Shown here piece by piece: positions 44,642 through 61,991 of a DNA stretch of 64,000 nucleotides. Both the position numbers and the translations under genes were made by a program. The number at the start of each line of letters is the position of its first letter. Within the stretch, counting starts at the first letter, position 1. The DNA comes from Acidobacteriota bacterium (GTDB taxonomy: Bacteria > Acidobacteriota > Holophagae > Acanthopleuribacterales > Acanthopleuribacteraceae): assembly GCA_020439745.1 (NCBI GenBank), contig JAGQSC010000017.1, forward strand, positions 1-64,000. Reading direction: 5' to 3'. The notes under the pieces were generated by a model. That model was not told the DNA's origin, searched no databases, and saw nothing but the letters and a program-made list of their open reading frames with translations.

Positions 44642-45318
44642 GGGTCGGTCGTAAATCCCATGCCAAGCCACATGGGCCAGCCTTCAAATTTTGCCAATTT
44701 GGCACTCAACGTCTGATGTTTTTCGTTCACGATGCATTCCTGGACGAACTCTAATTTGAATCCCGCCTTCAAGGCAGCATTGATGAAATCACTCATTTGA
44801 TGGTTGAAGCTTTCGAAGCGGATTTCTAATCCTGATTGATCGACAAAATGGGCCTGCTTCTGTAGTAGGAACATGGCTGGATGCATGGCCGAGCAGATGA
44901 ATCTCGTTGTGGGTCGGGCTGATTGCTTGGCACATGCAAAGAAGGTCAGCAGAGATGAGATATGTTCCAGGACTAACGCGCTTACGATGAGATCGAACGT
45001 ATGATCGAGCTGCCATGGTTGGTTGAGATCGCATTGTTGGAATTCAAATGGATGTCCAGCAAGTGACTTCTTGGCAACTTCGAGCATGCCACTAGAAACA
45101 TCTAGTGCGACCACCTGATCCGCGTTGGAAAAATGTCGGGTGACTCTACCGGTGCCGCATCCCAGTTCAAGCACCTTTAGACCCCTAACATCAGGTAATA
45201 ACGGTATCAGCAATTGATCATCAAGAGATACCAGTGGATTATCTTCCTGATCGTAGGCATTTGACCAACGGTCGTAGCCTTCTTGCGTCGATACGTGAAT
45301 CACTTGTTTCTTGACCAT
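44638..45318 (-). CDS. SAM-dependent methyltransferase
   Basis: This 226-residue class I methyltransferase shows motif I VLELGCGTGRVTRHF near residue 50, VVALDVSSGML, and DLIVSALVLEHISS, matching BioC/UbiE-like Methyltransf_11 proteins. The first gene of a three-gene unit with the sensor and LytTR regulator, it is coupled by ATGA. ATG 45318 is used; ATG 45327 is possible. BioC, the malonyl-ACP methyltransferase of biotin synthesis, has a similar motif layout, so this enzyme is one candidate to check for BioC activity, but its context does not suggest it. Confidence 0.85.
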   Translation of the reverse strand: MVKKQVIHVSTQEGYDRWSNAYDQEDNPLVSLDDQLLIPLLPDVRGLKVLELGCGTGRVTRHFSNADQVVALDVSSGMLEVAKKSLAGHPFEFQQCDLNQPWQLDHTFDLIVSALVLEHISSLLTFFACAKQSARPTTRFICSAMHPAMFLLQKQAHFVDQSGLEIRFESFNHQMSDFINAALKAGFKLEFVQECIVNEKHQTLSAKLAKFEGWPMWLGMGFTTDP

Positions 45319-45411
45319 GACAACCATCCCGAGAAAACTGTTGCCAAAAATGTAGCAGCAAATGGATGCGGGGAGAAATGAGCTGTGCTTTGATTGGCGT
45401 AGAATGGCGCT

Positions 45412-46719
45412 ATGAGACCCACATCCAGGCAATCTTTGGAGCTACCCAGAGTTCAAGTGCATAGCTCGAACGGCCAGTTGCTGGTTGACATCAACGCGGT
45501 TCATTTGGAACCTGGCGAAGTGTTGGCGGTCACCGGTCCATCAGGATGCGGCAAAAGTTTGTGGCTTCACGCCCTTTTTGGACTCAATTATGGTCAAGAT
45601 CGCCGCCAAGCGGTGCTTAGCCCGCAAACGGGTTCCTTTTTGGTCGTCCAGGACCCTGGCTCGGGTCTCACGCCCGGACTTGCGATCCAGGACCATTTCA
45701 GAGATTTCAGCCACTCAGTTCAGCACCGGATTCGTCAGGTCATGGATGAACTTGGCCTGTCTCGTGCGCTACTGAGTAGGACGCCAGATGCTTGTTCTGG
45801 CGGTGAACGCCAAAAATTGATGGTAGCCATGGTGGTGGCACAGCAATTCAACATGATAGCCTGCGATGAACCTACGGCATCACTGGACACTGACAGCGAG
45901 GGTCAACTGATGGACCTTCTGCGAACACGTTGCCGTCAAATTCAAGCTCGCCTGCTTTTTATTACCCATGAAACTGAAATAATTGACGCTTACGCGGACC
46001 GAGTGCTGGTGATCAACGGTGGTAGACGTGCCTGGTTGGGTGGGATTGAGGCTTGGCGTGCACAACAGACCTTCAGCATGGAATCCATCGCGTGGGATTC
46101 GGAGTTGGGCACCGAACTCTTGACGTTCAGAGGTGTCATTCCTACTCAGGTACCCGTAGCGTTCTCTTTGGCAGCCGGTGAATGGATTTGGCTTATAGGA
46201 AAGTCTGGAAGTGGAAAAACAACTCTTTTGCACCAGATCGTGGGTCTTCTCCCTGGAACCGTCTATTTGGAAGGCAGATGCCTGGCAACAGACTATCGGA
46301 AACGTAGCTCTAAGGAGCGAAAGTCGATTCAAATGGTTTGGCAGCAAGTGGAACGTACATTCAATCCAAGTCGAACCTTGGGTGTGCAACTCGGGGACGT
46401 AGCCGATGAAATGATAGCCGGCTTGGGCTTGGTAAATTTGGATCAGAATAGGGTTCCGGCTCACTTCTCGACGGGTGAGCTTCAGCGGTTTGCTTTGCTC
46501 AGGGCGCTGTCACAATCGCCTAGGATTTTGCTACTGGATGAATGTGTGGTGTCCCTGGACATGGATCTGCGTGAGCAGGTGCTGCGTTATTTGAAACAGG
46601 TGACTAGCGAAAGAGGAATTGCGGTGGTCGCCACGAGCCATGAACCTATTTTCGCGGGTCGAATGGTGAACCTGGACCTATTACAAAAGGACCGTGTCGA
46701 GTTCGGAAGTAGACCTTAG
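45412..46719 (+). CDS. Double ABC ATPase of a peptide/nickel-type importer
   Basis: The 435-residue protein fuses two ABC ATPases, equivalent to DppD and DppF, but each half is only about 215 residues. Half one: GPSGCGKS, VVQDPGSGLTP, CSGGERQKL, DEPTASLD, ITHE. Half two: GKSGSGKTTLL, QQVERTFNPS, STGELQRFAL, DECVVSLD, TSHE. The second signature (STGEL) deviates from LSGGQ and its Walker B ends in DECVVSLD. It would energise the permeases on the opposite strand. It overlaps the DppC-type gene by 39 bases at the 3' end. Confidence 0.9.
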   Translation: MRPTSRQSLELPRVQVHSSNGQLLVDINAVHLEPGEVLAVTGPSGCGKSLWLHALFGLNYGQDRRQAVLSPQTGSFLVVQDPGSGLTPGLAIQDHFRDFSHSVQHRIRQVMDELGLSRALLSRTPDACSGGERQKLMVAMVVAQQFNMIACDEPTASLDTDSEGQLMDLLRTRCRQIQARLLFITHETEIIDAYADRVLVINGGRRAWLGGIEAWRAQQTFSMESIAWDSELGTELLTFRGVIPTQVPVAFSLAAGEWIWLIGKSGSGKTTLLHQIVGLLPGTVYLEGRCLATDYRKRSSKERKSIQMVWQQVERTFNPSRTLGVQLGDVADEMIAGLGLVNLDQNRVPAHFSTGELQRFALLRALSQSPRILLLDECVVSLDMDLREQVLRYLKQVTSERGIAVVATSHEPIFAGRMVNLDLLQKDRVEFGSRP

Positions 46720-47568
46720 TTCCAAATGGGCTCTCATAGCCACGAGCCATGTAGACAGCAAACCAACAATGAACCCGGCCATGCGCAGGGAGTTATTCTG
46801 AAAACACGTGTTCAGCAGTCGGCCCAACCCCTCTTGGGCAACGCCCACATATCCCAGTGCCGCATCGAGGACGAGGCAACTGGAAAATAGTATGAGGAAA
46901 TTCGCGGTTATTGGCACACGCATGTTGGGCATCCATTCGCAGATCCAGATCCGCCACGTTGCCTCGCCGCGCAAGTGCGCAAAGATACTGAAAGGCGCAT
47001 GGCTCAATTCAGTGATGCGCGACTCAATTAATCGTGCTGCTTCGCCCCACATGAGCAACCCCATCACGATACTGCGCAGATAAAGGTCACCGGGCGTGAC
47101 GGCGGCCCCGAATAGGATGAGAATGTAAATGGGGAAAGCGAGCGCAAGACGGTGGATTGTACGCATAACCGAACCCGAAATACCTGATGTGATAGAAACT
47201 ATGATGCCAAAAACGATGCTGACTGCGCTGGCCAATAATGCGCTGAGTAAAGCGACCTGGATTGAAACGCGGTGTGCCATCAAAAGCAATATCCATTGAT
47301 CGCGGCCCAGTCGGTCCTGGCCTAGCAGGTGTTTTGAGGGCTGGGACCATACCTGAAAGTCGTCAGGCGCAAACAGATTTGGAAACAAAGCCAGCACCAG
47401 GAGGGTGATGACCACCGTAAACGCGGGATTGGCATGGAAACGCTTGTGCATTGTGACCAACACGATCGGTATTGAAATGAGGTACCAGGCATGGACAAAA
47501 ACGGCGAGCCAAATGAAAAGACAGCATAGAGCTGAAGCTGACAAGGTGCTCAATCGGGCGATGGTCAT
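46681..47568 (-). CDS. DppC-type ABC permease
   Basis: This 295-residue inner-membrane protein has six predicted membrane segments and a cytoplasmic loop with EAARLIESRITELSHAPF, the equivalent of the EAA motif of peptide-type importers. GQDRLGRDQW near residue 85 is the usual DppC feature. ATG 47568 overlaps the DppB-type stop (ATGA). It forms the second half of the permease heterodimer. Confidence 0.88.
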   Translation of the reverse strand: MTIARLSTLSASALCCLFIWLAVFVHAWYLISIPIVLVTMHKRFHANPAFTVVITLLVLALFPNLFAPDDFQVWSQPSKHLLGQDRLGRDQWILLLMAHRVSIQVALLSALLASAVSIVFGIIVSITSGISGSVMRTIHRLALAFPIYILILFGAAVTPGDLYLRSIVMGLLMWGEAARLIESRITELSHAPFSIFAHLRGEATWRIWICEWMPNMRVPITANFLILFSSCLVLDAALGYVGVAQEGLGRLLNTCFQNNSLRMAGFIVGLLSTWLVAMRAHLELRSTSELDTVLL

Positions 47569-48527
47569 GATTGTCTCCGTTGAAATACGTTACCCAATTC
47601 GTATCCAAGAAGACCCAATGCACTGACATAGAGCGAAGCAGCCGAAAGTAGAGGAAGATCTCTTCCAAGCGCCGCGTCAACCAGGAGCAAACCCAATCCC
47701 GAAAATCCGAAAATACATTCAATGACCAATGATCCACCGGCAATTGCCGGTAAGTGAAGTGCCAGCAATTGAACCGCGGTTGGCCAAAGCTGTCGGAACT
47801 TGTGCCGCCACAAGATTTGTTGTTGGGATGCGCCTCGTCCCCATGCTGCGATGACAAAGGGCATATGGTCCATCTCGTCTAGTCGTGCTTGCAAGCATAA
47901 GGCAAGATATCCAGATACAGGCAGCGCCAGAGTTAAAGCGGGAATAACAGCCTCAATGGACCAACGGAACATGCCCCCTGTGTAGGATGCAAAGGGGTAC
48001 CAATCAAAAACCGTCAGTAGTAGCCATCGCGTGGTTACAGCCCACACCAGAGATGGAACCACAAGCAAAATAACGGGAACCCATTTGGCTCGATATGACT
48101 TGGATCGGGCCATGACACTCAGCCAAGCCAAACATCCAAGTACGGCAATCGTTACTGAAATAGTTCCCAGAATCAACGAGCGGAGCATGGTCGGGGCCAA
48201 CACCTGAGCCACGGGCTGTTTGTAGACGAACGACATGCCTAGTTGACCCGTCACGCAACCCTTCAGGAAAAGCAGGTACTGAACGCCAATGGATTGGTCA
48301 TATCCAAACTGCGTTTCAATTCGCATCTTAGTGGCCTGGGAAAGCCGCGGGTCCACGAAAACGTCCATAGGGTTTTGGTCGATCACGGCAAAGAAAACAA
48401 ACAACAGCGTGGCAATTAACCACAAACCCGCGACCACTCTCAGCCATGGCGCTAACCAGTTACGGAATGAACTCAATGTTTTCAATGCCGGAAAGCGGAT
48501 CAAGGTAGTTTGGCTTAAGAGCTTCAA
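47565..48527 (-). CDS. DppB-type ABC permease
   Basis: The 320-residue protein has an N-terminal membrane segment (VVAGLWLIATLLFVFFAVI), a large periplasmic loop containing YDQSIGVQYLLFLKG and QLGMSF, and four to five more segments with LDEMDHMPFVIAAWGRGA as EAA loop. This is the DppB pattern. The start is uncertain: TTG 48527 and TTG 48476 are both possible, and both overlap the end of the binding-protein gene. The latter leaves a more typical short N-terminus. Confidence 0.85.
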   Translation of the reverse strand: MKLLSQTTLIRFPALKTLSSFRNWLAPWLRVVAGLWLIATLLFVFFAVIDQNPMDVFVDPRLSQATKMRIETQFGYDQSIGVQYLLFLKGCVTGQLGMSFVYKQPVAQVLAPTMLRSLILGTISVTIAVLGCLAWLSVMARSKSYRAKWVPVILLVVPSLVWAVTTRWLLLTVFDWYPFASYTGGMFRWSIEAVIPALTLALPVSGYLALCLQARLDEMDHMPFVIAAWGRGASQQQILWRHKFRQLWPTAVQLLALHLPAIAGGSLVIECIFGFSGLGLLLVDAALGRDLPLLSAASLYVSALGLLGYELGNVFQRRQS

Positions 48528-50058
48528 GTAGCGGAGAGGTGGCAGCCGCCTGTAATGTTTCGTAGAGCAAAGTCACAGGCGCCTCCTCATAGAAAAGACT
48601 CTCAATGTGTTCCAGGCACGTGTCTAATTCAGCTTCATCGGTTGCCCATTCTAGGCGATCAAGCCACGGGTCGGCTGATGACCATGAGCTGTAATTAAAG
48701 CCATCATCGCCAAGAGCATGCCGGCTGTGGAAGAGTTCAGCGAGATCAGGGCGGTTTTCCCGTCTGAACATCACAAACGCAGCATCAAATTGTTTCGCAG
48801 CGCATCGGCTCCAATAAAGGCTGGGCTCCACGAGTTCGATATCCATGCGTACACCGTACTGGCGAAGGTCACGTTGGATGAGCGACAGATAGTCTTCTCT
48901 AATTTGACTTCCCGTGTTGCAAAGTACAGAAAAAACAAGGGGACCCGAAAGATTCTCGCGAATACCGGTTTCGGGATTGACCAGGTAACCCTTGGTTTCC
49001 AGCATGCGTATGCCTTTGTTGGGATCGTGATTCCTCGGGAGAATGGCTGTTTTGTGGAATGACATACCCACTGACCATGGGGTTGCTGGCAACTGGGCTA
49101 GGTTGCCCCATAGTTGCTGGATATACGCATCTCGAGCAAGTAGGAATTCAATCGCAACTCTAATCTGTGGGTCAGAAAACAAGCGATGAGGGTGTGATTT
49201 GAGGTGTTCATTAAGTGACGATTGATCTTTGATGTCCAAGTCACTTGAATCAATAGGGTTCCACACCAGATAGGCAAATTGATGGTTGGGAAATGGTTTT
49301 GGAACGAGTGGTGGAGGGAGGGTTTGCATGCGATGAGGAGGCAATGACCATGAGTAGTCAATCAATCCAGATTCCAACCACATGTATTGAGTCTCCCTAT
49401 CACGGGCAAAGGTGAAAACCAGGTCGGGACCTGAAAACCCATAGGGAGTAACCCGCAAGAATTGATTGGGTTCGTAGCCTTTCAATTGATAAGGCCCACC
49501 ACCGACTAGATGCTGTGCCCAGTTCACTTCCAACCAATTACCGAAGGGGTGCACCGAAAAAACGTGCTCTGGAATCATGAACCCTTCATTGAGATCCAGC
49601 AGATTGGTCCTTTTAGCTCGGTGAAACCGTACGGTTAGGTGCTGTGGGTCGATGATTTGCCAATCCGCAATGTTGGCTTTTGTGTCAGCGCTGATCCACG
49701 GTACTTCGGGCGACATTTGGACTTTAAGGCTGTAGGAAACGTCTTTTGATGTAATGGGGTTCCCGTCATGCCACTGGCGAGTCGGATCGAGATCAAGGGT
49801 AAGGATTTTCTGTGTGTCGTCCCAATGGTAGACGGTCACCAAGAAGGGCCTGAGTTCGGGTGCGTTACCTTGACCCGGTTGTTCCTCGAATAGCCTCGGA
49901 AATAAGAGGCCGGCCACGATTTCGCCTTCAACCGATGTGGAGGTGTAGGGATTGAGAGAATCCACGTCACGCATCAACCCTATTCGGACAGTTCGATCAG
50001 GATCGGTGCGTGTGCACGATGGCAATAACGTCAAAAGCATGAACAGCGCAAAACGCAC
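48460..50058 (-). CDS. Peptide/nickel-type ABC substrate-binding lipoprotein
   Basis: This 532-residue SBP_bac_5 protein would capture the substrate of the importer. A lipoprotein signal ends in TLLPSC with C15 as the lipidated residue. RTVRIGLMRDVDSLNPYTS near the N-terminus and W-H-D-G-N-P-I-T-S-K-D-V-S-Y-S are hallmarks of the DppA/OppA/NikA class. Its C-terminus overlaps the DppB-type gene. The substrate (oligopeptide, metal chelate, other) is not decidable. It is divergent from the sigma-factor gene. Confidence 0.9.
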   Translation of the reverse strand: MRFALFMLLTLLPSCTRTDPDRTVRIGLMRDVDSLNPYTSTSVEGEIVAGLLFPRLFEEQPGQGNAPELRPFLVTVYHWDDTQKILTLDLDPTRQWHDGNPITSKDVSYSLKVQMSPEVPWISADTKANIADWQIIDPQHLTVRFHRAKRTNLLDLNEGFMIPEHVFSVHPFGNWLEVNWAQHLVGGGPYQLKGYEPNQFLRVTPYGFSGPDLVFTFARDRETQYMWLESGLIDYSWSLPPHRMQTLPPPLVPKPFPNHQFAYLVWNPIDSSDLDIKDQSSLNEHLKSHPHRLFSDPQIRVAIEFLLARDAYIQQLWGNLAQLPATPWSVGMSFHKTAILPRNHDPNKGIRMLETKGYLVNPETGIRENLSGPLVFSVLCNTGSQIREDYLSLIQRDLRQYGVRMDIELVEPSLYWSRCAAKQFDAAFVMFRRENRPDLAELFHSRHALGDDGFNYSSWSSADPWLDRLEWATDEAELDTCLEHIESLFYEEAPVTLLYETLQAAATSPLLEALKPNYLDPLSGIENIEFIP

Positions 50059-50138
50059 GATCGATTATCCTATGCGATGATCTGACCGATAATAACATGC
50101 AGAAGCAGTGTGAGGGCGAGAGGAGAACAGCGTACGGC

Positions 50139-50759
50139 ATGCGGCGTACCAAACACAGTCAACCCGAGTCTAATGCGGATACCGGCGTTGTAGACCAATT
50201 CTTGGTCGAACGATGCCTGGCTGGAGATGACCGAGCTTGGGCAACATTGATTGAGCGTTACAAGCGGTTGGTCTATCACTTTCCCGTTCAAGCCAAACTG
50301 GAGCCGGATGACTGTGACGAAGTTTTTCAAGAGACCTTTCTGGCCCTTTATAAGCAGTTGGCTAATCTAACCCGGCTGGACGATCTGTCTTTTTGGCTAA
50401 GTCGCGTGGCGCAGCGTATTACATGGCGTACCGTAAAGGCGAAGTCCACACTCATGGAAGGCCATCTAGAAGCTTTTGAGTCGCAATCAGAGTCTGACAT
50501 CCAGGAAAAGGAATTAATCCGTCAGGTCCAGGAATTCAAGATACGCAATGCGATTTTGCAAATGAACCACACTTGTCGGGTTTTGTTGGTTCGGCTGTTC
50601 TATGAATCAGACGACACCGACTATCAAGGATTGGCCGATCAGTTGGGAATCGCGATGGGTTCGGTGGGACCGACTCGTTCACGATGTTTGGTAAAACTTA
50701 AAAAAATCCTTGCAAGGATGGGCATCGACGAGAAGAATGTATCAAGCTGGCTCAAATGA
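50139..50759 (+). CDS. ECF-type RNA polymerase sigma factor
   Basis: This sigma-70-family protein (206 residues from ATG 50139) has region 2 (about 18-90; CDEVFQETFLALYKQL with the -10 melting segment) and region 4 (about 130-195; YQGLADQLGIAMGSVGPTRSRCLVKL helix-turn-helix). AGGAG lies 13 bases ahead; ATG 50097 is in frame but has no ribosome site. No zinc-finger anti-sigma gene follows. It heads the operon-like group with the small protein, the CHAT protease and perhaps the subtilisin, so it may direct their expression. Confidence 0.92.
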   Translation: MRRTKHSQPESNADTGVVDQFLVERCLAGDDRAWATLIERYKRLVYHFPVQAKLEPDDCDEVFQETFLALYKQLANLTRLDDLSFWLSRVAQRITWRTVKAKSTLMEGHLEAFESQSESDIQEKELIRQVQEFKIRNAILQMNHTCRVLLVRLFYESDDTDYQGLADQLGIAMGSVGPTRSRCLVKLKKILARMGIDEKNVSSWLK

Positions 50760-50808
50760 ACCACTTAATGATGGGGCATGTTATTTTGATTCATCTAGGG
50801 GTTGTTAA

Positions 50809-51243
50809 TTGACTCGTCACTTGGATTTCTGGGGAAAAGTGCGTCGGCTGCTCGGCAGAAAAACGCTGGACGTTCCGGACAACTTAGTTGAGTGGGCACA
50901 GCAATTGATGGAGGGACACACAGCCAGCCCGAAAATCGTGTTTGAGCATACGAATTTGATGCGTACATCCATGACCATCGAGCGAATGCATGTGGCATTG
51001 TCTGATGAAATCGACATCATGATTGAGATTGCTGAAGGAAGGGATGGCTGCCATCTGCTCGCCGTGTCCGATACGTTGCTATTTGCTGACGTACTCGTGT
51101 TCTGTGGCGAAATCGCATTTCAGACCTATATGGTTGATGGATGTTTTGAATTCAAGGGTCTGAGTGCCGGCAAATATCGAATAGCCATTAATGAAGGAAA
51201 AACGGTTCATTGGATCGATCATCTCGCGGTGGGGTCCCCTTAA
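50809..51243 (+). CDS. Small unknown protein between sigma factor and CHAT protease
   Basis: The 144-residue product starts at TTG 50809. It has no signal peptide. The N-terminal half is helical (FWGKVRRLLGRKTLDVPDNLVEWAQQLMEG); the C-terminal half is beta-rich and ends GCFEFKGLSAGKYRIAIN, a turn common in prealbumin/carboxypeptidase-regulatory-like sandwiches. It overlaps the CHAT gene start by 34 bases. In this position an anti-sigma factor or adaptor of the protease would be expected, but no such domain is recognised. Confidence 0.7.
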   Translation: MTRHLDFWGKVRRLLGRKTLDVPDNLVEWAQQLMEGHTASPKIVFEHTNLMRTSMTIERMHVALSDEIDIMIEIAEGRDGCHLLAVSDTLLFADVLVFCGEIAFQTYMVDGCFEFKGLSAGKYRIAINEGKTVHWIDHLAVGSP

Positions 51244-53903
51244 CATCTGACCTGCTCAATGATTTCTCTGCGTTTGAGCGAGAGTTTTTGAAGCTTCTGC
51301 AGCAGGACATCGAAAGCGCATCAGCGTATGAACCGAAACTACGCAGGTTGGTTCGAGGATCCGATCTCCTATTGGCGGCACGAAGCAGCCGCCTGATGGG
51401 TCGGTATTACGGTGCGTTGGGAGAAAACAACCGGGCCCTCCGCTGGATGCAAGTTGCATTGAGGAGATTCAAAGCGGTCCCACACCGACCGGGCGAGATC
51501 CAATGCCACTTGGCGCTGATGGACATGCACATGAGGCGAGGTTCATTTGAACGTGCTTCGGATCACGGAAAAGCCATAAGCACCGATTCGAGTGCCAATC
51601 ATGTCGATCTCGCGAAGACATGGATCAATTTTGGCGTCATGGCTCATAGACGTCGGCAATACGATCGATCGGCAAAATTGCTCGAAGCAGCAGTGAACAT
51701 TGTTTCTAAGACAAACCACAAGAACCTGTGGGCAATTGCGCTGCACAATCTCGGTTGTGTGGAACTATCTCGTAACCGATTTGGCGAAGCTCAAGTGCAT
51801 CTCAATCATGCACGGAAACAGTTCGAGCTTTTGGGGTCGTCGTTGCACTCGGCTTACGTTCACCAGACTCTGGCGGAAGTGCACAGTATTTTGGGACACA
51901 TTCAAGTGGCTATGAATGAACTGAATGCTGCCCGCAGCCTCTATTTGACCGTTGGGGACCGTTTGGGTGTGGCGTATTGCGATTTGGAATTATTTTCGAT
52001 TGATATCTCCGTTGGCAATTTTGGCGACGCCGTGAATCGAAGTGATGCGCTGGTCCAAGAGTTCCAACAACGGTCACTATCTTTTGAGAAAGCGACGGTA
52101 CTCTACCTCACCGCAAAAGCTTGGATGTGTCTCGGGGAACCCGACCTGGCTGACGACGTTTTGTTGCAGGCTCGCAAAGTGTTCAAACGCGAGAAAAACC
52201 AGCACTACCTGGCTTTGTGTGATGTGTTACTTGCCGAGTTAGTGGCGGCAGATGGCCACTTTGAGCGGGCATCGAAGCTCATCGAAAAAGCACGTAAATA
52301 TTTTCGCGACAAGAGGCTCTTCGAACAAGAAATGAACTGCCTGATTGCCAAGCACCGTGCGTGTTTGGATCAGTTTGGTCGAGACGATATGGCGCGCATA
52401 CGCGTGTTGTTGAAGCGACCTATCAGCACCATGGCGGCCGTTGAAGCACGATTCTTGGTTGCGAGTGAATGTGCGCGGGGAGGCAGAAAAGCCGTTGCCA
52501 TACGGGAGCTCGCGCACGTCATTGCGTTGCTGGAGGAAACCCGGTCCACAATTGACTCCAGTGACCGCAGGCGGAGCTTATTCGGTCATCAAAAAAGCGC
52601 TTATGAACGCTTGGTCGCCTGGTTGTTCGAGTGGAACGAGCGGCAATCGAACGACGTCATCGCCCAGTTACTGGAAATGACCCGATGCCGCGAGCTCATG
52701 AACGCGATGAAGGGACCGTTTGAAGACACGGGCCCACCCAATCGTTTGGCCCACGAACTCCAGAGTTTGTTGGATCATGCGGGACACTTGGATCGCAAGC
52801 TCTCACGGCTCACACAAGATCCATGCGCATCCGCCGCCGAAGTGACGGAGGTCGTTCGCAGTCGAAAAGCATGTCGGGCATCCATCCAAAAAACAAAAAA
52901 ATCGTTGCAGGACCACCGCCGCCTTTCTCTGTATATGCCTTCTGATGTGTCCCTATCGGATATCCAAGCACTATTGCCTGAAGGTACCCTCGTTCTGGTC
53001 TTTTTTGTGACTGACGAGCAGATTTACCGACTTGCGATCGATGACCAAAAGGTCATCAAGTCCGCCATTCCTTTGGACAGCTCGTTACTTCGAGATATTG
53101 GTTATGTCACGCAAGCAAGTCGCTCGACTTTGGGCGAGACCCGACTGAGACAGGCCTTGGTGAGACTAGGCGGCACGCTCTTGCCTCAAATGGAGGGCAA
53201 ACAACTTTTGATTGTGCCCCACAAGCAGCTGCAACGTTTTCCTTTTGGGGCCCTGATCACGAACCAAACGTTTCTAATCGAAGAGATGAGTGTATCGATT
53301 TGCCCGAATTTGGGCATCCTGGCGCACGGCCTGCGACATCCACAAAAACACTTTCGTCGTGCCCTGATAGCTTGCTCTCAACGAGATGGGGATCCGAAAG
53401 CAAAGGAAGCAAGCACCATCGCTTCGATCTATCCGGTACAACAAAGTGAGCGCTTTGACACAAAACTCTTGGCTTCGTTGGATAGCGAGAGCCTGTTTCA
53501 CTTTGCCGGGCACAGTTACTTTGATGCCGCTCAGCCGGAACGTTCATACCTTGAGTTGGGAGGTGACCGTTTCTTTCTATATCAATTGGAAGGTGTGGAT
53601 ATTGGCGGTGCATTCGTGAATCTGGCATCCTGTCAATCAGGTGTGATGGCTCACGATTTATCCAATGAGCTGGTCGGGTTTGTGACGCACTTTTTTTCGG
53701 CAGGTGCCTGTGGTGCCTTGGGTTGTAGTTGGGAAGTGGACGATGTCGAAACAGCCGAGTGGATGGTCCACTTTTATGAATCAATGCGCGAAATGAGCGT
53801 GCGTGAGGCGCATCAAAGTGCCTGCCGGGCGTTAATTGGTGCGGATCGTTCCATTCGATCTTGGGCGGGGATCCAGTTATATGGGGTCTTTCGTTCGGAT
53901 TAA
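51210..53903 (+). CDS. TPR-CHAT cysteine protease
   Basis: This 897-residue cytoplasmic protein has about ten TPR-like helical repeats (roughly 20-460), a helical linker, and a C-terminal CHAT (caspase/separase-clan) peptidase domain (roughly 590-895). The catalytic dyad is visible: H768 in HFAGHS and C808 in LASCQSG. TTG 51210 is the start, with GAAGGA 11 bases ahead, inside the preceding gene. CHAT proteases linked to TPRs act in programmed-response and defence settings (for example Csx29 of type III-E CRISPR); the partner here may be the sigma factor, the small protein or the subtilisin. Confidence 0.92.
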   Translation: MDRSSRGGVPLTSDLLNDFSAFEREFLKLLQQDIESASAYEPKLRRLVRGSDLLLAARSSRLMGRYYGALGENNRALRWMQVALRRFKAVPHRPGEIQCHLALMDMHMRRGSFERASDHGKAISTDSSANHVDLAKTWINFGVMAHRRRQYDRSAKLLEAAVNIVSKTNHKNLWAIALHNLGCVELSRNRFGEAQVHLNHARKQFELLGSSLHSAYVHQTLAEVHSILGHIQVAMNELNAARSLYLTVGDRLGVAYCDLELFSIDISVGNFGDAVNRSDALVQEFQQRSLSFEKATVLYLTAKAWMCLGEPDLADDVLLQARKVFKREKNQHYLALCDVLLAELVAADGHFERASKLIEKARKYFRDKRLFEQEMNCLIAKHRACLDQFGRDDMARIRVLLKRPISTMAAVEARFLVASECARGGRKAVAIRELAHVIALLEETRSTIDSSDRRRSLFGHQKSAYERLVAWLFEWNERQSNDVIAQLLEMTRCRELMNAMKGPFEDTGPPNRLAHELQSLLDHAGHLDRKLSRLTQDPCASAAEVTEVVRSRKACRASIQKTKKSLQDHRRLSLYMPSDVSLSDIQALLPEGTLVLVFFVTDEQIYRLAIDDQKVIKSAIPLDSSLLRDIGYVTQASRSTLGETRLRQALVRLGGTLLPQMEGKQLLIVPHKQLQRFPFGALITNQTFLIEEMSVSICPNLGILAHGLRHPQKHFRRALIACSQRDGDPKAKEASTIASIYPVQQSERFDTKLLASLDSESLFHFAGHSYFDAAQPERSYLELGGDRFFLYQLEGVDIGGAFVNLASCQSGVMAHDLSNELVGFVTHFFSAGACGALGCSWEVDDVETAEWMVHFYESMREMSVREAHQSACRALIGADRSIRSWAGIQLYGVFRSD

Positions 53904-54005
53904 CGCTCGATTTATTGAACCAGAGCAGTTATTCTTGACTCATGGACTCCGGCCAGTACTCCGATAAGGCATGTGTCGTGTGTTGTCGGGAGGTAGAGGA
54001 TTGCA

Positions 54006-55241
54006 ATGACTCGATTTTTTGTTTGCTCGGCTTGGATTTGCATGGGTGCCTTGGCATCTGAGCATTCAGTCATCATCAAGCTAGCAGATGGCGTATCGGC
54101 AACCGATGCGTTGTCGGGTTTTGTGATCGTCCATACAGAGCCGGTGGGCATGGCCAACGTATTCAAGGTTACGATCGATACGCATTTGAGTGGCCAGGCC
54201 TTGCATCAACAGATCAAACGAAACCGCAACGTCTTGAAGTCGGAAGACAACCAGGCAAGTGAACTGGTTGGACCCGAAGATCTGGTTGATTTGGACCAGC
54301 GTACCATAGGCATTCTGGATGACTTCGAAATCAACCAAAGAACAATCGGGGTCCTCGATGATATCGACATGGATTACCTGGCCCTCTTCAGTCAACCTTT
54401 TACGGAGCACGTGAGAGCCATCGACGCCTGGCCCTACACCAAAGGGCAGGGCATTGTCGTCGCTGTTGTGGATACTGGCGTCGACCTAAATCACTCCTTC
54501 TTGGCAGGCAACTTGGTAGCGGGCTGGGACTTCGTGGCGAATGACGACCAACCTCAGGACGAACGAAGCGGACTGGATAGTAACCAAAACGGCTTTGTAG
54601 ACGAGGGGTGGGGGCACGGAACCCACGTGGCAGGCATCATCAAAATGATGGCACCCAACGTGAGTGTGATGCCTTTGCGAGCCGTCGATTCGGATGGAAA
54701 TGCCGAACTGGCCCATATTCTGAGCGCCATTAATTATGCTGTGGAGCACGGTGCTCGGATCATCAATCTGAGCATGAGCATTTCTGACCCCTCGGAACTA
54801 CTGATTGGGGCGATTGACCAGGCTCGAAAGGCGAACGTGCTCGTCGTGGCTTCGGCTGGAAATAGGAACGACGCTTTTCTAAAGTATCCAGCTTCCGAGA
54901 TGGAACCTATTGCAGTCGCATCCGTGGACCACTACGGTCAGAAATCTTCCTTTTCCAATTACGGCCGCGAGGTTGATATCTGTGCGCCCGGAGAATTGGT
55001 GATCAGCTGTCTTCCCGGAGACAGGTACGTGCGCCGGTCTGGAACTTCCATGGCCGCGCCTATGGTAGCTGGCGAAGCGGCACTCATCCTGGAATTGGTG
55101 CCTTCGGCCCCTCTAAATTACCTAAAAGGCCGTATTCTCAACAATTGCACCGAAGTGAATAGTTTGAATACGGCCTATAGAAATCAATTGGGTCGGGGTG
55201 TGATGGACGTTTGGAACGCCATCACGCTCCAACCCCATTAG
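54006..55241 (+). CDS. Secreted subtilisin-family (S8) protease
   Basis: The 411-residue protein has a signal peptide (cleavage near ALA-SEH, residue 17), a fervidolysin-like propeptide (about 20-80), a linker with a duplicated nonamer QRTIGILDD/QRTIGVLDD (98-106 and 111-119), and a peptidase domain with triad D156 (VVDTGVD), H204 (GHGTHVAG) and S348 (GTSMAAP). GGGAGG precedes the ATG. It lies 102 bases behind the CHAT gene. The duplicated segment sits exactly where proteolytic activation would remove the propeptide, so it may be a cleavage site. Confidence 0.93.
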   Translation: MTRFFVCSAWICMGALASEHSVIIKLADGVSATDALSGFVIVHTEPVGMANVFKVTIDTHLSGQALHQQIKRNRNVLKSEDNQASELVGPEDLVDLDQRTIGILDDFEINQRTIGVLDDIDMDYLALFSQPFTEHVRAIDAWPYTKGQGIVVAVVDTGVDLNHSFLAGNLVAGWDFVANDDQPQDERSGLDSNQNGFVDEGWGHGTHVAGIIKMMAPNVSVMPLRAVDSDGNAELAHILSAINYAVEHGARIINLSMSISDPSELLIGAIDQARKANVLVVASAGNRNDAFLKYPASEMEPIAVASVDHYGQKSSFSNYGREVDICAPGELVISCLPGDRYVRRSGTSMAAPMVAGEAALILELVPSAPLNYLKGRILNNCTEVNSLNTAYRNQLGRGVMDVWNAITLQPH

Positions 55242-55272: not shown

Positions 55273-56790
55273 TTAGAATTGGACGACTGCTTGGTTTGAG
55301 CATTCGCCGGAGTCGCATACGACGTAGGTGTAGCTGACGCCACCACCTTTTTTGTCAATGTTGTCGGTGAATGAACCTGAGTTACCAGTTGTGGTCAGCA
55401 AATTCCCATCGCGGTAGATTTCCACGGTGGAACCGGAAGCGCCGCTCCAGGTGAGGTCTGCCTTCTGGTAGCCGCGAACTTTGTAGCCCACGGCCGACAA
55501 CGAGATTGCGCCACCTGAACCATCGGTGACCGTGACTTGTTGGGATGTGCTGGCGTTGGCGCCACCATTGTCGGTTACGGTGAGCGATACCATGTAGGTA
55601 CCTGCGCTGGCATAGCTGTGCGAGGGGTTCTGGGCCGATGATGTACTGCCGTCCCCAAATGTCCATGACCAACTGACGACATTGCCGTCAGGATCAGAAC
55701 TTCCATCCGTGAAGTCAACGGTGAGACCCGTGGTGGAGAAACTGAAGGCTGCGTTGGGCGATTGATTGCTTCCACTTCCACCGTACAAAGATGGCCTGTA
55801 ATTAACCAAACCGCAAACCATGCGATTGGCTTGCTCGGCAGTAAAGTGGTCCATGCAGGTGTCGTTGGTGTAATCCATATAGTTGTGAATGGGGTCGGCA
55901 GAACTGCAGGACGTGGTTTGTACACAGTCATAGCGAGCGGTGACTTCGTCATTGGTGTCGGCAATCAAATCGCCACTTGTATAGGGGTTGGAGCCGTCGC
56001 AGCCACCTTGGAAGGTGTGGTAAAGGCCAAAATAGTGACCAATCTCGTGAGTTGCCGTGCGTCCTTGATCGTAGATGCCACCATAAGGCGCATTGCGTCC
56101 TACGGCCGTCCAGTTGAGAACAACTCCATCTAAGGTCTGGCCAGCCATATCTTGTGGGAAATAGGCATATCCAAGGTAACCACTGGCCTCGTTGGTGTAG
56201 ATGTTTAAGTAGAGATCCTGATCCCAGCCCAATTGCGACTTGTATTGTGATTCGCGACGATCGTTAAACCATTGTCGGTTGGCGGTTCGCGTGACACCGG
56301 CTAATTCGAAGCGAATGCCGGTATCGAAACCCGGTGCTCCTGGGGAGCCATTGAAGGCACCGAAGTCTTCATTGAGAATGTCGATTTGGCTTTGAAGGAG
56401 GCTGTTGGAGATGTCGCCGGTTCCGTTGGTATCGGTGATCACATGAAAAACAACCTGCACGGTGTAAGTTTGCGCGGGATAATACTCGTTCTGAATAACG
56501 GTCTGGTTCTTCGTGCAGTCACTGGCCGCCTTTTCCTGCAAACCCATGGGCATCAATTCGCTTTTGCAACGTCGACTCTCAAAACGGAACTTATCGGAAA
56601 GCTGAAACTCCGCCATGCTTTCGAAACGTTCGCCATCTACAATCACAGCGCCATCTGCTTGAACAGAAAAGGCGTGATCAAATTCATCCAAGGCGTCCAT
56701 ATCGACCGCCTGGTTGTTGCCGTTCCCGGCAAAAAGACTCAAGGTGAAGCATGCGGCAGCTAGCCACAGTCCCCGTTTGAACAAGCTCAT
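55273..56790 (-). CDS. Secreted M43 (pappalysin-like) metalloprotease with PKD domain
   Basis: The 505-residue protein has a signal peptide (ends near FAGNG, residue 23), a propeptide, and a zinc-protease domain with H248-E249-IG-H252-YFGLY-H258 as zinc ligands and the M43-type MDYTNDTCMDHFT Met-turn. A PKD domain (about 348-425; WTFGDGSTSSAQNPSHSYASAGTY) and a C-terminal FN3-like domain (about 430-505) follow. It is transcribed towards the subtilisin gene with only 31 bases between stops. Its leader holds alternative hairpins. Confidence 0.93.
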   Translation of the reverse strand: MSLFKRGLWLAAACFTLSLFAGNGNNQAVDMDALDEFDHAFSVQADGAVIVDGERFESMAEFQLSDKFRFESRRCKSELMPMGLQEKAASDCTKNQTVIQNEYYPAQTYTVQVVFHVITDTNGTGDISNSLLQSQIDILNEDFGAFNGSPGAPGFDTGIRFELAGVTRTANRQWFNDRRESQYKSQLGWDQDLYLNIYTNEASGYLGYAYFPQDMAGQTLDGVVLNWTAVGRNAPYGGIYDQGRTATHEIGHYFGLYHTFQGGCDGSNPYTSGDLIADTNDEVTARYDCVQTTSCSSADPIHNYMDYTNDTCMDHFTAEQANRMVCGLVNYRPSLYGGSGSNQSPNAAFSFSTTGLTVDFTDGSSDPDGNVVSWSWTFGDGSTSSAQNPSHSYASAGTYMVSLTVTDNGGANASTSQQVTVTDGSGGAISLSAVGYKVRGYQKADLTWSGASGSTVEIYRDGNLLTTTGNSGSFTDNIDKKGGGVSYTYVVCDSGECSNQAVVQF

Positions 56791-57652: not shown

Positions 57653-60600
57653 TCAGTTGTCAAGTGACGTGTTTTTCCAGATCAGTTGTTGGAACGCGCG
57701 TATGGTTTGTTGGTCCACACGATCGTTAAAGCCTTTGAAGGTACCGTCGATGGATCCGCCAAACACCTGGCCGTTCTTGATATAGACCGAGGCGCGACTC
57801 TTGGTGAATTCTGTTTGAGTGACGCGGTTGGTTGCAGTTGGATCCAGATCAACCGAGAACAGAAATGCCGACGGCGTTGGATCATTGACGTCCGGCAAAT
57901 CAAAGGTTGGGTTCGCCGAATTGAGAGACCCTCGCACGGCCACGAAGAAGATGCGACCGCCCGCGAACGTGATGGGTGCGTAGAGCTTCAGTTCACCCAG
58001 GTTGATGGGTGGAATCAACAACTGCTCGTCTTTCAGGTCATACACGACGACGATGTTGTTGAGGGCGCCCGACCAGTCCGTGCCTCCTGTGCCAAAGGCA
58101 ACGACCTTGTGGCCGGCATATTCGCCCACCGAAGGTGTGGCTGCAATCGGTCGATCGTTGGTCGATGGTACAGCGCCGACACTGGCGTCGAATAATGGTA
58201 TTGCGGGGTTGGCCGATGCCGAAGGTGGGATGGCATTGCCCGTGGCAATATCGATGCGCCAGAGCCTTCCATTCAGGTCACCTACCAGTAGGCTGTCGTC
58301 GAAACTGTCGCTATCCAAATCGGCTACAGCCGCTGAGGCCGGCAGATCGTTTTGGCCGGTTGAATTGTAGCTACGAATGAATGGGCTGGGCCAAATGGAT
58401 TGTCCAGTCTGTAAGTCGAGCGCAAAGATCCTGAGCCCGTGTCCGTTGACATCGTCCGGGTCGTTGGTGGTCACAATTGCGGCATAACCCAATACACTCA
58501 GTGAACCCACCTGTTTCTTGTAGCGCGCCACGGATACGCGCTGGGCGTAGCCGAATACGTTGGGGTCAAAGCGACTCCACAACAAGGTGGGGTTGGTTGG
58601 GTCGGTCACGTCTAGCGCACTGATCCCTTTGGCACCGGTGCCGTGTCCTGAAGCGACGATGGTTCGCCAATGCCTGGAACCCACTTGGTTGTTGGGGTCA
58701 ACCGGTAGGAATGCATCCAGAACGACCGGCGATGAATCTACTTTGGGTCTGTCCGCATCGTCGCTGCGAATGTTCTTAAGCTTGGTCATCAGCGCAGCTG
58801 GAACGTAGCCCATCATTTCCACGCCATCTTCGAGTCGGATGAACTCCAGTACACCATAGGTGGTTCCCACATATCCAACCGCAGGACGGTTACTGTTAGA
58901 GCGTTCGTTGGGCGGTACGATGGCTGGGGTAGAACGTTCCACACCGCCGAAACGTTTGGCGCGGAACTGGCCCCTGAAATTTTTGATGTCTTCGGCCACA
59001 CTGGCTACGGTGTCATTGGGGTCGTTGATGTAAGCTTCGATAACCGCTGCATTGTCTTGGTGCACTGGTTGGCGTACTCCGTTGATGTAGGTAAAAAGCA
59101 CGCGGTCTGTCCAGGCAGGCATTATAGCGAATCCGGCTGCGTCCCAGCTCTCGGTCAGGGTACCAGCCAGACTGTTACCATTGCTGTCTACCAATGGATA
59201 GGCGCGGAAATGGCCTGCATTGCCCGGATACTCAAAGGTGCCGAAATACAAGACGTCATCATCGACTACGGGACCGCTGCGGGCAAATTCTTGCACGGCA
59301 ACAGGATCCACGATGTTGTTAAAGAGCGTGTTCAGGATGTATCGAATGCCTCCGATGTTTTGCGGTCGCGGGACAGGTGGCTGGTTGGGGTCGCCCGTTC
59401 CGCCTGCAAAGATCACATCGGTCCCACCACCTTTGCGACTGCGCGGCACAAAACTCACCGTGCCGTTGTCGCAATTGCGCGGATTGTAGTTGGGATACAC
59501 ATCGGAACAAAAGCCACAACTGCTGGTACCGCATTGGCCGTTATCCAATTGGATGTCAAATTGCTGAAACACGTAATCGTGGCCGCAATGGCAGTCAAAT
59601 AGCACCGTCACGTTGGTGATGCGATAGTTGTTGGTGGTCTGGTTTGTAATAAAAATTCCGTCCAGGTGATCAGTGCCTGCAGGACTTCCCTGGCCGTTGC
59701 AGCCCGGACCGTAGTTGGTACGACCATCAATGGTTTGGGCTAAGAAATCTGTATTGGCCCAATCAGCGAAAGTGCCCTCGCTCATCGGTCCAATGGTCAA
59801 GGACTCTTCGCCGCCATCGTACTCTAGAATAATGGTCACTTCGGCGTCTGGATTGGTCCAGAATTCGGGCACGTTGCGCCTACAACTTTTCATGGTGAGG
59901 TCTATGCGATAGGTGACACCGGGCGAAATGATGGGTTCACAACTGACGTAGCGGTGTCCGGCGATCATGTGCAAGTTACCTTTGTTCGGATCACTGTCCT
60001 TGGTGCGCATGGCGTAATAAGTCCATGGATTGTCAGCTGTGGAGTCCCGGGCAATCAAATTCACGTTCTGATTCCACGCTGAGGTGTTGCCGCTGGACGT
60101 GCCAGTAGTTGGCGTATCACCTGCCTGATAATTGCGGTAATTCTGTGTATCGTTGGTCACGTCGGGTACAAATGGATAGTCGCCAATTTGAGAAAAGGGC
60201 AAATCGAAATTCTCGTAAACAGTGGGATCTATCGTGGTACCGTTGATGCCCATGAACGTTGAAGTCATGAGCGAGGCGACCGATTCCCAAGTATCAATGG
60301 ATTTGCACGTGTAAAGCACGTTGCCACCTGCATCGGCAAAGGCCAACACGTTATTGATCATCTCGGTCTCAGTGGCATCTGGCCAGGGCTCATCAGCCGG
60401 TATGAAATGGGGTACCCACAGGATGAAGAAATCGGCAACGGTCAGGTCACCAGCCGCCACATCCGTTGGATCGAGAATCACATAATAGTTTTGCGGAACA
60501 CCTGCCAACTCAAGGTAGCAGGCCAAAAGAGTCTCGCCCTCATTGTCTGAATTGTTGAGCAACGCGATTTGTCGAGGCGTGTTTTGATAGGTGGCGCCCA

Positions 60601-61033
60601 CTGGAGCGGTGACGGGTTCGTCGAATCGATGAACCACTACGTGGTCGTATAGCGGCGAGCTTTCGGAAATAATGCGCAGAGCCGTGGCCGCATCCTGGGC
60701 ATCAATCATCCATGGTCCACCCAGATACTGTTGGGGGATGGGGTCGACGGGCACGAAGAGTTCACCCGACACCACGGTGATGGGCACATCGGTCGTCACC
60801 AAATCGGGATCTTCATTGGACTGTTTGTCTTCTTTAATAATCACGTGAACCGTGACGCCTTGGACCAACAGTTCATAGACCAGTCCATAAGCTTCAAAGA
60901 TACCGTCGTTAAAGGTGTCCTGGGTTTGCGAATCCATGGGGATGATCAAGGAACCCGTGGGAAACGTCCGATCCTCAGCGATGGCGATTGTTCCTACCAA
61001 CGCCAGACAAATGGTCAAAATGCGTCTTTTCAT
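57653..61033 (-). CDS. pilY1: PilY1-like tip/adhesin protein
   Basis: The 1126-residue secreted protein has a signal peptide (cleavage near AIA, residue 18), an N-terminal region with a Rossmann/GATase-like stretch (about 150-290), a beta-rich middle (about 300-560) and a PilY1 C-terminal propeller (about 580-1110). A calcium loop of PilY1 type, DLDSDSFDD, is followed by LVGDLNGRLWRID, the propeller signature. There is no N-terminal VWA domain as in Pseudomonas PilY1. PilY1 sits at the pilus tip with the minor pilins and controls extension and adhesion. GGAG precedes the ATG. Confidence 0.88.
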   Translation of the reverse strand: MKRRILTICLALVGTIAIAEDRTFPTGSLIIPMDSQTQDTFNDGIFEAYGLVYELLVQGVTVHVIIKEDKQSNEDPDLVTTDVPITVVSGELFVPVDPIPQQYLGGPWMIDAQDAATALRIISESSPLYDHVVVHRFDEPVTAPVGATYQNTPRQIALLNNSDNEGETLLACYLELAGVPQNYYVILDPTDVAAGDLTVADFFILWVPHFIPADEPWPDATETEMINNVLAFADAGGNVLYTCKSIDTWESVASLMTSTFMGINGTTIDPTVYENFDLPFSQIGDYPFVPDVTNDTQNYRNYQAGDTPTTGTSSGNTSAWNQNVNLIARDSTADNPWTYYAMRTKDSDPNKGNLHMIAGHRYVSCEPIISPGVTYRIDLTMKSCRRNVPEFWTNPDAEVTIILEYDGGEESLTIGPMSEGTFADWANTDFLAQTIDGRTNYGPGCNGQGSPAGTDHLDGIFITNQTTNNYRITNVTVLFDCHCGHDYVFQQFDIQLDNGQCGTSSCGFCSDVYPNYNPRNCDNGTVSFVPRSRKGGGTDVIFAGGTGDPNQPPVPRPQNIGGIRYILNTLFNNIVDPVAVQEFARSGPVVDDDVLYFGTFEYPGNAGHFRAYPLVDSNGNSLAGTLTESWDAAGFAIMPAWTDRVLFTYINGVRQPVHQDNAAVIEAYINDPNDTVASVAEDIKNFRGQFRAKRFGGVERSTPAIVPPNERSNSNRPAVGYVGTTYGVLEFIRLEDGVEMMGYVPAALMTKLKNIRSDDADRPKVDSSPVVLDAFLPVDPNNQVGSRHWRTIVASGHGTGAKGISALDVTDPTNPTLLWSRFDPNVFGYAQRVSVARYKKQVGSLSVLGYAAIVTTNDPDDVNGHGLRIFALDLQTGQSIWPSPFIRSYNSTGQNDLPASAAVADLDSDSFDDSLLVGDLNGRLWRIDIATGNAIPPSASANPAIPLFDASVGAVPSTNDRPIAATPSVGEYAGHKVVAFGTGGTDWSGALNNIVVVYDLKDEQLLIPPINLGELKLYAPITFAGGRIFFVAVRGSLNSANPTFDLPDVNDPTPSAFLFSVDLDPTATNRVTQTEFTKSRASVYIKNGQVFGGSIDGTFKGFNDRVDQQTIRAFQQLIWKNTSLDN

Positions 61034-61054
61034 GACGGTCTCCTCTTCATCTCT

Positions 61055-61453
61055 TTACCAGCCTTTGGATTGGTGAACTGGGTCTTTGGTCGTCTCGTTG
61101 ATAAACCACACGTCATCACCGGGTTCCTTACCGCCAATGGCCTTTTGCCGATCGGCTGCAACTGCGCGAAATGTGGTGTTGGTGGCGTTTTCGATAGTCA
61201 CCTGATAATGCGTGCCATAATTGAAGGGATCTGCATCGTATCCCGGTAGGTCGGTCAAGGTGCTGGCGTAGCGGAAATGGGTCGAGCGGAAGACTTCCTG
61301 TTTGGCTTTGAGTTGAGAAAGCGCCGCGCTTCCGTCCGCCGATCTACTCTGTGCCACCATGCCGCTGTACAATGGAACCGCAATCGCCGCTAGGATTCCT
61401 AAGATAACGACGACAATCATTAACTCAATAATGGAAAATGCACTGCGTTTCAT
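61055..61453 (-). CDS. pilE: Type IV pilin-like protein (PilE-type)
   Basis: This 132-residue prepilin starts MKRSA-FSIIELMIVVVIL. The prepilin peptidase site has alanine where glycine normally stands; F+1 and E+5 are conserved. The hydrophobic alpha-1 helix and a short globular domain follow. In other bacteria a PilE-type minor pilin closes the fimU-pilVWXY1 operon; here it lies between pilX and pilY1. If the A-F site is not processed, it would stay a membrane protein. Confidence 0.85.
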   Translation of the reverse strand: MKRSAFSIIELMIVVVILGILAAIAVPLYSGMVAQSRSADGSAALSQLKAKQEVFRSTHFRYASTLTDLPGYDADPFNYGTHYQVTIENATNTTFRAVAADRQKAIGGKEPGDDVWFINETTKDPVHQSKGW

Positions 61454-61457
61454 AGGA

Positions 61458-61991
61458 TCACCCTCCGTCCATGACTTGATTTAAGCCGCTGTCAATGTCG
61501 ACTTCGCTTGAAAATGCGGAGTTGGACTTCGAGCCTCCACTTTCCTGTGCGTATTCGGTTTCAGTGCCGAGGTATTTGAGCAGGACCTCGACTTCCGTGC
61601 GACCGCCAGAAGGCAGAGACCCCACGGAGCTCACGATAATCCGACCATCTGTATCAGTATTGAAGTCGCCGTCCAGATCGTTGTTATCTCGCACAATGAC
61701 GTTGAAGTTCACAATGCCTGAGGCGATCATCGGGTAGGCGAGTGTCCCTACCAGCACCTCACCGCCATTGTCGTTCAACACATTGGTGAAGTTTGTGTCT
61801 GCATCGTCAAGCAGGAGAGGCGATGCCTGATGGACGCCACTTTCTGCGGCGTTCAAGGTGATCCCTTGTGAGTATAAGCTGCCCGAGAGACTAATGTCGG
61901 CCAGTACAACTGCCAAGGAAACCAAGGCCAGCATGCCCAGAATCACGATCACACCGAGCGTGATGACTAAACTGAAACCCCTTTTGTTCAT
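61458..61991 (-). CDS. pilX: PilX-like minor pilin
   Basis: The 177-residue protein starts MNKRG-FSLVITLGVIVILGML, with a consensus cleavage site but no glutamate at +5 (isoleucine instead), the pattern of PilX/GspK-type tip subunits. ATG 61991 overlaps the pilW stop (4 bases). It would join PilV and PilW in the initiating tip complex. Confidence 0.85.
   Translation of the reverse strand: MNKRGFSLVITLGVIVILGMLALVSLAVVLADISLSGSLYSQGITLNAAESGVHQASPLLLDDADTNFTNVLNDNGGEVLVGTLAYPMIASGIVNFNVIVRDNNDLDGDFNTDTDGRIIVSSVGSLPSGGRTEVEVLLKYLGTETEYAQESGGSKSNSAFSSEVDIDSGLNQVMDGG

Follow-up and report, generated by a model that had tools for sequence, protein, structure and literature searches.

How an extracytoplasmic function (ECF) sigma factor might be controlled by the proteases encoded next to it is the question raised by a four-gene cluster in a 64,000-nt stretch of DNA (the window, by which we mean this whole stretch; contig JAGQSC010000017.1) from the 5.1 Mb draft genome of an Acidobacteriota bacterium. 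The cluster encodes the sigma factor, a small protein, a TPR-CHAT cysteine protease and a secreted subtilase, and the initial annotation had tentatively read it as a protease cascade serving stress or defence. Our analysis leads us to favour, at somewhat better than even probability, a protease-gated sigma switch whereby the small protein holds the sigma factor and is cut by the TPR-CHAT protease once the latter is activated, the sigma factor being thereby freed. The genes are as follows:

50139..50759, + strand: ECF-type sigma-70 factor, 206 amino acids (Sigma70_r2, 2.6e-6; sigma70-ECF, 3.1e-15; Pfam, NCBIfam)
50809..51243, + strand: small protein, 144 amino acids, TTG start; anti-sigma-derived, without a ZAS domain, with two N-terminal helices and an all-beta domain of transthyretin-like kind
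51210..53903, + strand: TPR-CHAT cysteine protease, 897 amino acids, TTG start, His768/Cys808
54006..55241, + strand: secreted subtilase (S8) with signal peptide, I9-like propeptide and catalytic domain (D156, H204, S348)

All four lie where they had been placed, with their catalytic residues intact, and the reported overlap between the small gene and the CHAT gene is exactly 34 bases. A second in-frame ATG precedes the sigma gene at 50097; the sequence GAGGAG some 12 nt upstream of 50139 favours the latter as the probable start.

A gene order that recurs across phyla

The four-gene arrangement is more than chance, its order recurring across families and phyla. Five of the six other genomes of the order encode one full-length CHAT orthologue each, always within a sigma-small-CHAT-subtilase cluster, at identities to the window proteins of 48-57% for the sigma factor, 36-55% for the subtilase, 29-35% for the CHAT protein and 17-27% for the small protein; G005 and G006 hold two or three subtilase copies. 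A sigma-factor profile search returned matches at E 1e-20 or better in 56 of 396 Acidobacteriota genomes, and around 66 related sigma loci (all from Acidobacteriota save one actinomycete, some missing genes being due to contig ends) a small gene is near in 61, a CHAT gene in 57 and an S8 gene in 51. Among 199 genomes sampled from the phylum of a Planctomycetaceae record (the Planctomycetota sample), 12 match the small-protein profile, and each of the eight loci fetched holds all four genes. The linkage of sigma factor, small protein and CHAT gene, on which the initial annotation had staked its proposal, is therefore conserved among relatives. In Nonomuraea gerenzanensis (Actinomycetota, L150) the sigma, small and subtilase genes are accompanied by a divergent CHAT gene, which stands in the record as two overlapping frames. 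Distances between the four proteins co-vary as well (Spearman 0.51-0.71).

Searches further afield were largely negative. CHAT homologues occur in 24 of 189 Myxococcota genomes, where the loci examined have neither a sigma nor a small gene nearby; the small-protein profile found no matches in that phylum, an empty answer of limited weight, and a Gemmatimonadota-phylum sample gave partial matches only. Scanning genomes with the window CHAT protein alone yielded no matches, and a six-row CHAT profile retrieved the family and otherwise only generic CHAT proteins. Plasmid matches in Streptomyces and Miltoncostaea were rejected as clusters, the sigma gene being present there without the full set; on the Miltoncostaea oceani plasmid (L113, 8028-9424) a subtilase gene comes after a related sigma gene, with no annotated CHAT gene nearby.

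The arrangement also varies and multiplies. Three to five related sigma genes per genome, many of them clustered, occur in G181, G394, G069, G404 and G393 (L092, L101, L175, L185 and others), and gene-order variants such as sigma-CHAT-small-subtilase are found in L103, L108/L209, L176 and L181, where the importer genes precede the cluster on its own strand in an operon-like series.

An anti-sigma lineage and a Csx29-like protease

On its own the window small protein matches no Pfam or NCBIfam family, and the initial description of an unknown small protein beside a sigma factor without a recognisable anti-sigma factor is to that extent correct for the protein itself; it does not hold for the protein's family. 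Aligned with its relatives, the window protein corresponds to the C-terminal two thirds of a longer family, 38 of whose 61 members examined carry at their N-terminus the ZAS zinc ligands H-x3/4-C-x2-C, invariant within the alignment of the ZAS-bearing relatives, and the genes of these relatives occupy the same position at the locus as the window small gene. Pfam searches with 20 relatives detected zf-HC2 in five (best 3.4e-5) and CarboxypepD_reg, a domain of transthyretin-like fold, in 14, the latter being undetectable in the window copy. The family profile matches solved anti-sigma factors (RsiW, 4.5e-6; DdvA, 0.0036; ChrR, 0.029), and hhalign relates the ZAS-less window family to the ZAS family with a probability of 98% (E 2.9e-13) in an alignment that begins just after the zinc domain. 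The AlphaFold2 model comprises two helices (residues 2-15 and 24-34, moderate confidence) and a confidently predicted all-beta domain (42-141). From these comparisons we conclude that the small protein is a descendant of a soluble zinc-type anti-sigma factor whose zinc domain has been lost in the window version, and we infer that this version may still inhibit its sigma factor. The earlier suggestion that the small protein could hold the sigma factor gains support because its relatives carry the ZAS anti-sigma domain.

The CHAT domain (E 3.3e-27) lies C-terminal to the tetratricopeptide repeats (TPR_12, 2.5e-13; both Pfam), which appear in the structure model as helical repeats over residues 13-500, and H768 and C808 are invariant in six family members and in 59 of 59 gap-free rows of a wider alignment. 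The best fold match is Csx29 (3.5e-16), although with the NCBIfam Csx29 model the protein reaches only 24.6 bits, the cut-off being 300. In type III-E CRISPR, the ECF sigma factor CASP-sigma is inhibited by Csx30, which Csx29 cleaves (PMC10028731), and the action of a TPR-CHAT protease on a sigma inhibitor is therefore an established mechanism, which makes the comparison with Csx29 already drawn in the initial annotation an apt one. The window cluster resembles this system, known as Craspase, in its neighbouring TPR-CHAT protease, predicted sigma inhibitor and ECF sigma factor, and the proteases share fold and catalytic dyad. It differs in that the inhibitor candidate is a 144-residue, ZAS-derived beta protein rather than the 565-residue Csx30, and in the presence of a subtilase and an Opp importer. 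Homology to Csx30 was not apparent, the small protein matching no NCBIfam family and its relatives being of the ZAS plus transthyretin-like kind. The window contains no CRISPR-like array, and there are no Cas genes among the annotated neighbours, Cas7-11 not having been sought genome-wide. Two repeat-rich signals were seen elsewhere: an Asp/Asn/Gly-rich stretch of a subtilase (L201), and CRISPR-like, regularly spaced 20-mers near 2037 of L198, a few kb from a cluster. The genome further encodes an unlinked second CHAT protein (G000:C17:231638-232438, within L001; frame of 1012 amino acids) whose CHAT match is stronger than that of the window protein.

Two described sigma groups bear on this assignment. 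According to the relevant passages of a 2022 review (PMC8999054, citing Casas-Pastor 2021 and Huang 2015), CHAT, subtilase and "carboxypeptidase" domains form the conserved context of ECF54, which is treated there as lacking an anti-sigma factor, whereas ECF270, with a model sequence from Acidobacteria and a soluble ZAS regulator, is treated separately. Our cluster is ECF54-like by gene context, as distinct from sigma phylogeny, in that an ECF sigma gene stands beside CHAT, subtilase and CarboxypepD-like genes; set against the ZAS regulator of ECF270, the window copy is without HxxxCxxC, which 38 of the 61 relatives possess. Most likely, then, to judge by these passages, the "carboxypeptidase" of ECF54 is the carboxypeptidase-regulatory-like (transthyretin-like) small protein, ZAS-bearing in most relatives, and the ECF54 and ECF270 contexts are joined in it. 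The claim that the composition had not been described can thus be upheld only in part: the gene context is listed for ECF54 in those passages, which make no mention of an importer or of peptide repeats, and the importer, the repeats, the ZAS/transthyretin identity and the link that it makes between the ECF54 and ECF270 contexts appear to be new. No experimental study of the cluster was found in the literature searched.

A further parallel is the Myxococcus xanthus DdvA-DdvS pair (PDB 8rot, 8rw5, 8rlz), likewise an ECF sigma factor with a ZAS anti-sigma factor, the DdvA chain being also annotated as a CHAT-domain protein. DdvA, however, is a single transmembrane protein of 991 amino acids, whereas here inhibitor and protease would each have a gene of its own and show no evident membrane anchor, and the cluster is not adjoined by a defence island.

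Junction peptides and an oligopeptide importer

Although the initial annotation was correct as to the four genes it named, it missed two further features, namely short peptide repeats in the subtilase propeptide and an adjacent oligopeptide importer. The subtilase (Peptidase_S8, E 8.3e-48) has a signal-peptide-like N-terminus and an invariant D156/H204/S348 triad, and it carries two copies of an octapeptide where propeptide and catalytic domain meet:

54297..54320, + strand: octapeptide copy 1, QRTIGILD, at the propeptide/catalytic junction
54336..54359, + strand: octapeptide copy 2, QRTIGVLD

A short motif between the I9-like propeptide and the catalytic domain, often in tandem as repeats of 6-8 residues, characterizes the linked subtilases. 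Tandem repeats were found in 22 of 55 linked subtilases but in none of the 25 unlinked ones taken from the same phylum (Fisher p 7.5e-5; shuffles, 0.7%); a motif regular expression gives 32 of 55 against 0 of 25, which, the expression having been derived from the linked set, is no independent test. Examples are DPRTIVFI (twice, L092), QRSLAFID (twice, L099), QKGAAFVD (twice, L100), QTSQAFID (three times, L110), GQSWSV (four times, L102) and QSTGAILD (in long runs, L108). The peptides differ between species and, where comparable, between two subtilases of one genome, as in the paralogous clusters of G404 (QKGAAFVD in one, QRSVAFVD in the other). A degenerate pattern of the peptide occurs only twice per genome in G000 and G001, both times within the subtilase gene.

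Across 25 genes the codons of the repeat copies comprise 89 synonymous differences, 12 non-synonymous differences and 99 identities, of which only the synonymous count is informative, the pairs having been selected for peptide similarity; in the window, seven of eight codons differ, six synonymously and one non-synonymously. So many synonymous differences indicate old copies that have been kept alike. Planctomycetota subtilases have single-copy motifs, such as QSNGVVLGS or CTVAFFDG, at the same site (their sole repeat call, L270, is a basic stretch and not the junction motif), which argues that the junction site is older than the repeats. As far as we can see, repeats at this junction of a subtilase propeptide appear to be unreported.

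On the other side of the sigma gene lies an Opp-type oligopeptide importer of the ATP-binding cassette (ABC) class, made up of an SBP_bac_5 protein, two permeases and a duplicated ATPase, from which the sigma gene is divergently transcribed across about 80 bases:

50059..50138: short divergent intergenic region between importer and sigma gene, presumably a shared promoter region
48460..50058, - strand: peptide-binding protein SBP_bac_5 of the importer, one of only two in the genome
47565..48527, - strand: Opp-type permease, OppB-like
46681..47568, - strand: Opp-type permease, OppC-like
45412..46719, + strand: duplicated ABC ATPase, probably part of the same importer (convergent)

SBP_bac_5 proteins are few in most of the cluster-bearing genomes (typically 2-4). 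Besides the window, 17 of 66 loci have a gene for one at a distance of no more than 9 kb from the sigma gene. Of the loci with full flanks, 8 of 40 show this proximity against about 1% expected (binomial 2e-8, and 2e-5 even at 3%); kinship among the genomes reduces the number of independent cases, several families being involved nonetheless. The importer may be divergent (window, L035, L216), upstream on the same strand (L103, L176, L180, L181) or downstream of the subtilase (L174, L178, L183). This linkage, too, appears to be unreported.

The wider neighbourhood comprises, immediately beyond the subtilase, a secreted PKD-domain-bearing metallopeptidase of the M43 family (55273-56790, - strand), possibly one more product of the cluster's proteolytic output, and adjoining type IV pilus genes (57653-62671, - strand) for a PilY1-like protein of 1126 amino acids and minor pilins, which carry N-terminal methylation motifs and one of which is ComP/DUS-receptor-like. 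The M43 and PilY1-like genes are kept in the same place in the genus relative G001. Beyond the importer follow a hybrid two-component regulator (propeller/histidine kinase, 903 amino acids) and then a methyltransferase (41960-45432, - strand).

The proposed switch and its alternatives

We picture the switch as follows. The small protein, as a soluble descendant of zinc-type anti-sigma factors, would keep the ECF sigma factor inactive until the TPR domain receives a signal, most likely a peptide, upon which the protease would cleave the small protein and release the sigma factor; a different sensor would stand in for Cas7-11 and its guide RNA, the logic being otherwise that of Csx29, Csx30 and CASP-sigma. 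The freed sigma factor would probably switch on the cluster together with the secreted subtilase, which would be exported and whose propeptide junction, with its short repeated peptide, could be excised during maturation. The adjacent Opp importer might bring peptides back to the cytoplasm, and TPR superhelices can bind peptides. That the signal itself is the subtilase-junction peptide, re-imported by Opp and bound by the TPR domain, is a possibility which we put forward tentatively and by analogy. With equal reserve, such a system might amount to peptide quorum sensing or export-import timing outside the Bacillota, with tandem pheromone copies in a subtilase propeptide; were the quorum-sensing reading true, paralogous clusters of one genome would be separate signalling channels, because their peptides differ.

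The analogy is with the RRNPPA systems of Bacillota (Rap, NprR, PlcR, AimR), in which the gene directly downstream of that for the TPR receptor encodes a Sec-exported propeptide; extracellular proteases mature the peptides, of which there may be tandem duplicates, and Opp takes them up again (PMC11343458, PMC9765709). The TPR domain is shared with these systems, and the repeats in the exported subtilase and the adjacent Opp importer could correspond to their propeptide and peptide uptake. The output domain, on the other hand, is a CHAT protease instead of an N-terminal helix-turn-helix or a Rap-type output, the candidate peptide forms part of the very protease that may mature it, and the host belongs to the Acidobacteriota. 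Matches of the TPR region to Rap and NprR profiles were not used as evidence of an RRNPPA-like domain, since kinesin light chain and LGN match more strongly.

Several observations weigh against the switch or its peptide extension. The HxxxCxxC motif is absent from the window small protein and its close family, so that sigma binding by this copy is no more than putative, and a fold search with its model gave no match with E below 0.001. We found no CHAT cleavage site, and a dyad search for a shared sigma promoter motif produced matches only among related species, which are not interpretable. The subtilase gene lies on the opposite strand in G003, G005 and G006 (three of six family members), most clusters have no linked importer, and none was detected near the eight Planctomycetota loci fetched. 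The review passages on ECF54 moreover proposed proteolysis without any anti-sigma factor (PMC8999054).

That published proposal, drawn from the same gene context, underlies an alternative whereby the sigma factor itself is degraded by the CHAT protease or the subtilase so as to keep the system off, the small beta-domain protein being an adaptor or scaffold. The lack of a ZAS domain in the window small protein would fit it, but the zinc ligands in 38 of the 61 relatives point to an inhibitor in most clusters, the window subtilase bears an export signal, and Csx29, the nearest solved protease, cleaves the inhibitor and not the sigma factor, all of which renders this alternative unlikely. Nor is the CHAT protease likely to act on the subtilase in a direct cascade, since the two enzymes occupy different compartments. 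The main rival to the peptide-signal extension takes the junction motif as a self-cleavage element, sometimes duplicated, and the importer as nutritional: the sigma factor would induce the extracellular subtilase together with the peptide importer, a natural pairing for the scavenging of protein, while the TPR-CHAT protein senses internal peptide supply or proteotoxic stress. The second secreted protease next door (M43) and the persistence of the single-copy site in Planctomycetota subtilases without repeats are in keeping with such a regulon; the repeats, however, are kept identical within a protein and yet vary from species to species and from one paralogous cluster to another in a single genome; moreover, repeat and motif are both absent from the 25 unlinked subtilases of these genomes, although self-cleavage should not depend on linkage to a CHAT gene. 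We accordingly regard a nutritional protease regulon as rather improbable.

An inducible anti-phage or abortive-infection system, the other role initially proposed, might seem suggested by the CHAT proteases and sigma release of type III-E CRISPR and by the control that the anti-sigma factor DdvA, with its partner DdvS, exerts over an M. xanthus defence island. The recurring neighbours are nevertheless Opp importers and subtilases, not nucleases or mobile-element genes, and PADLOC found among the window neighbours only generic TPR, subtilase, ATPase and methyltransferase matches and no described defence system, nor is there a CRISPR array in that neighbourhood. Neither a defence role nor a defence-island setting thus finds support, and we consider this explanation very improbable.

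The protease-gated switch, if correct, would extend the Craspase idea, namely the release of a sigma factor by a caspase-like protease, to a broad CRISPR-free setting that spans at least three phyla, and it would suggest a source for the sigma-release arm of type III-E systems. It also assigns a role to the "carboxypeptidase" of ECF54, as the review passages describe that context, namely that of an anti-sigma factor or a derivative thereof, and it proposes a concrete, species-specific octapeptide as a candidate ligand of a bacterial TPR-CHAT protease. Should the peptide signalling prove true, it would add a new kind of communication among bacteria, one that unites the pheromone with its maturation protease in a single protein.

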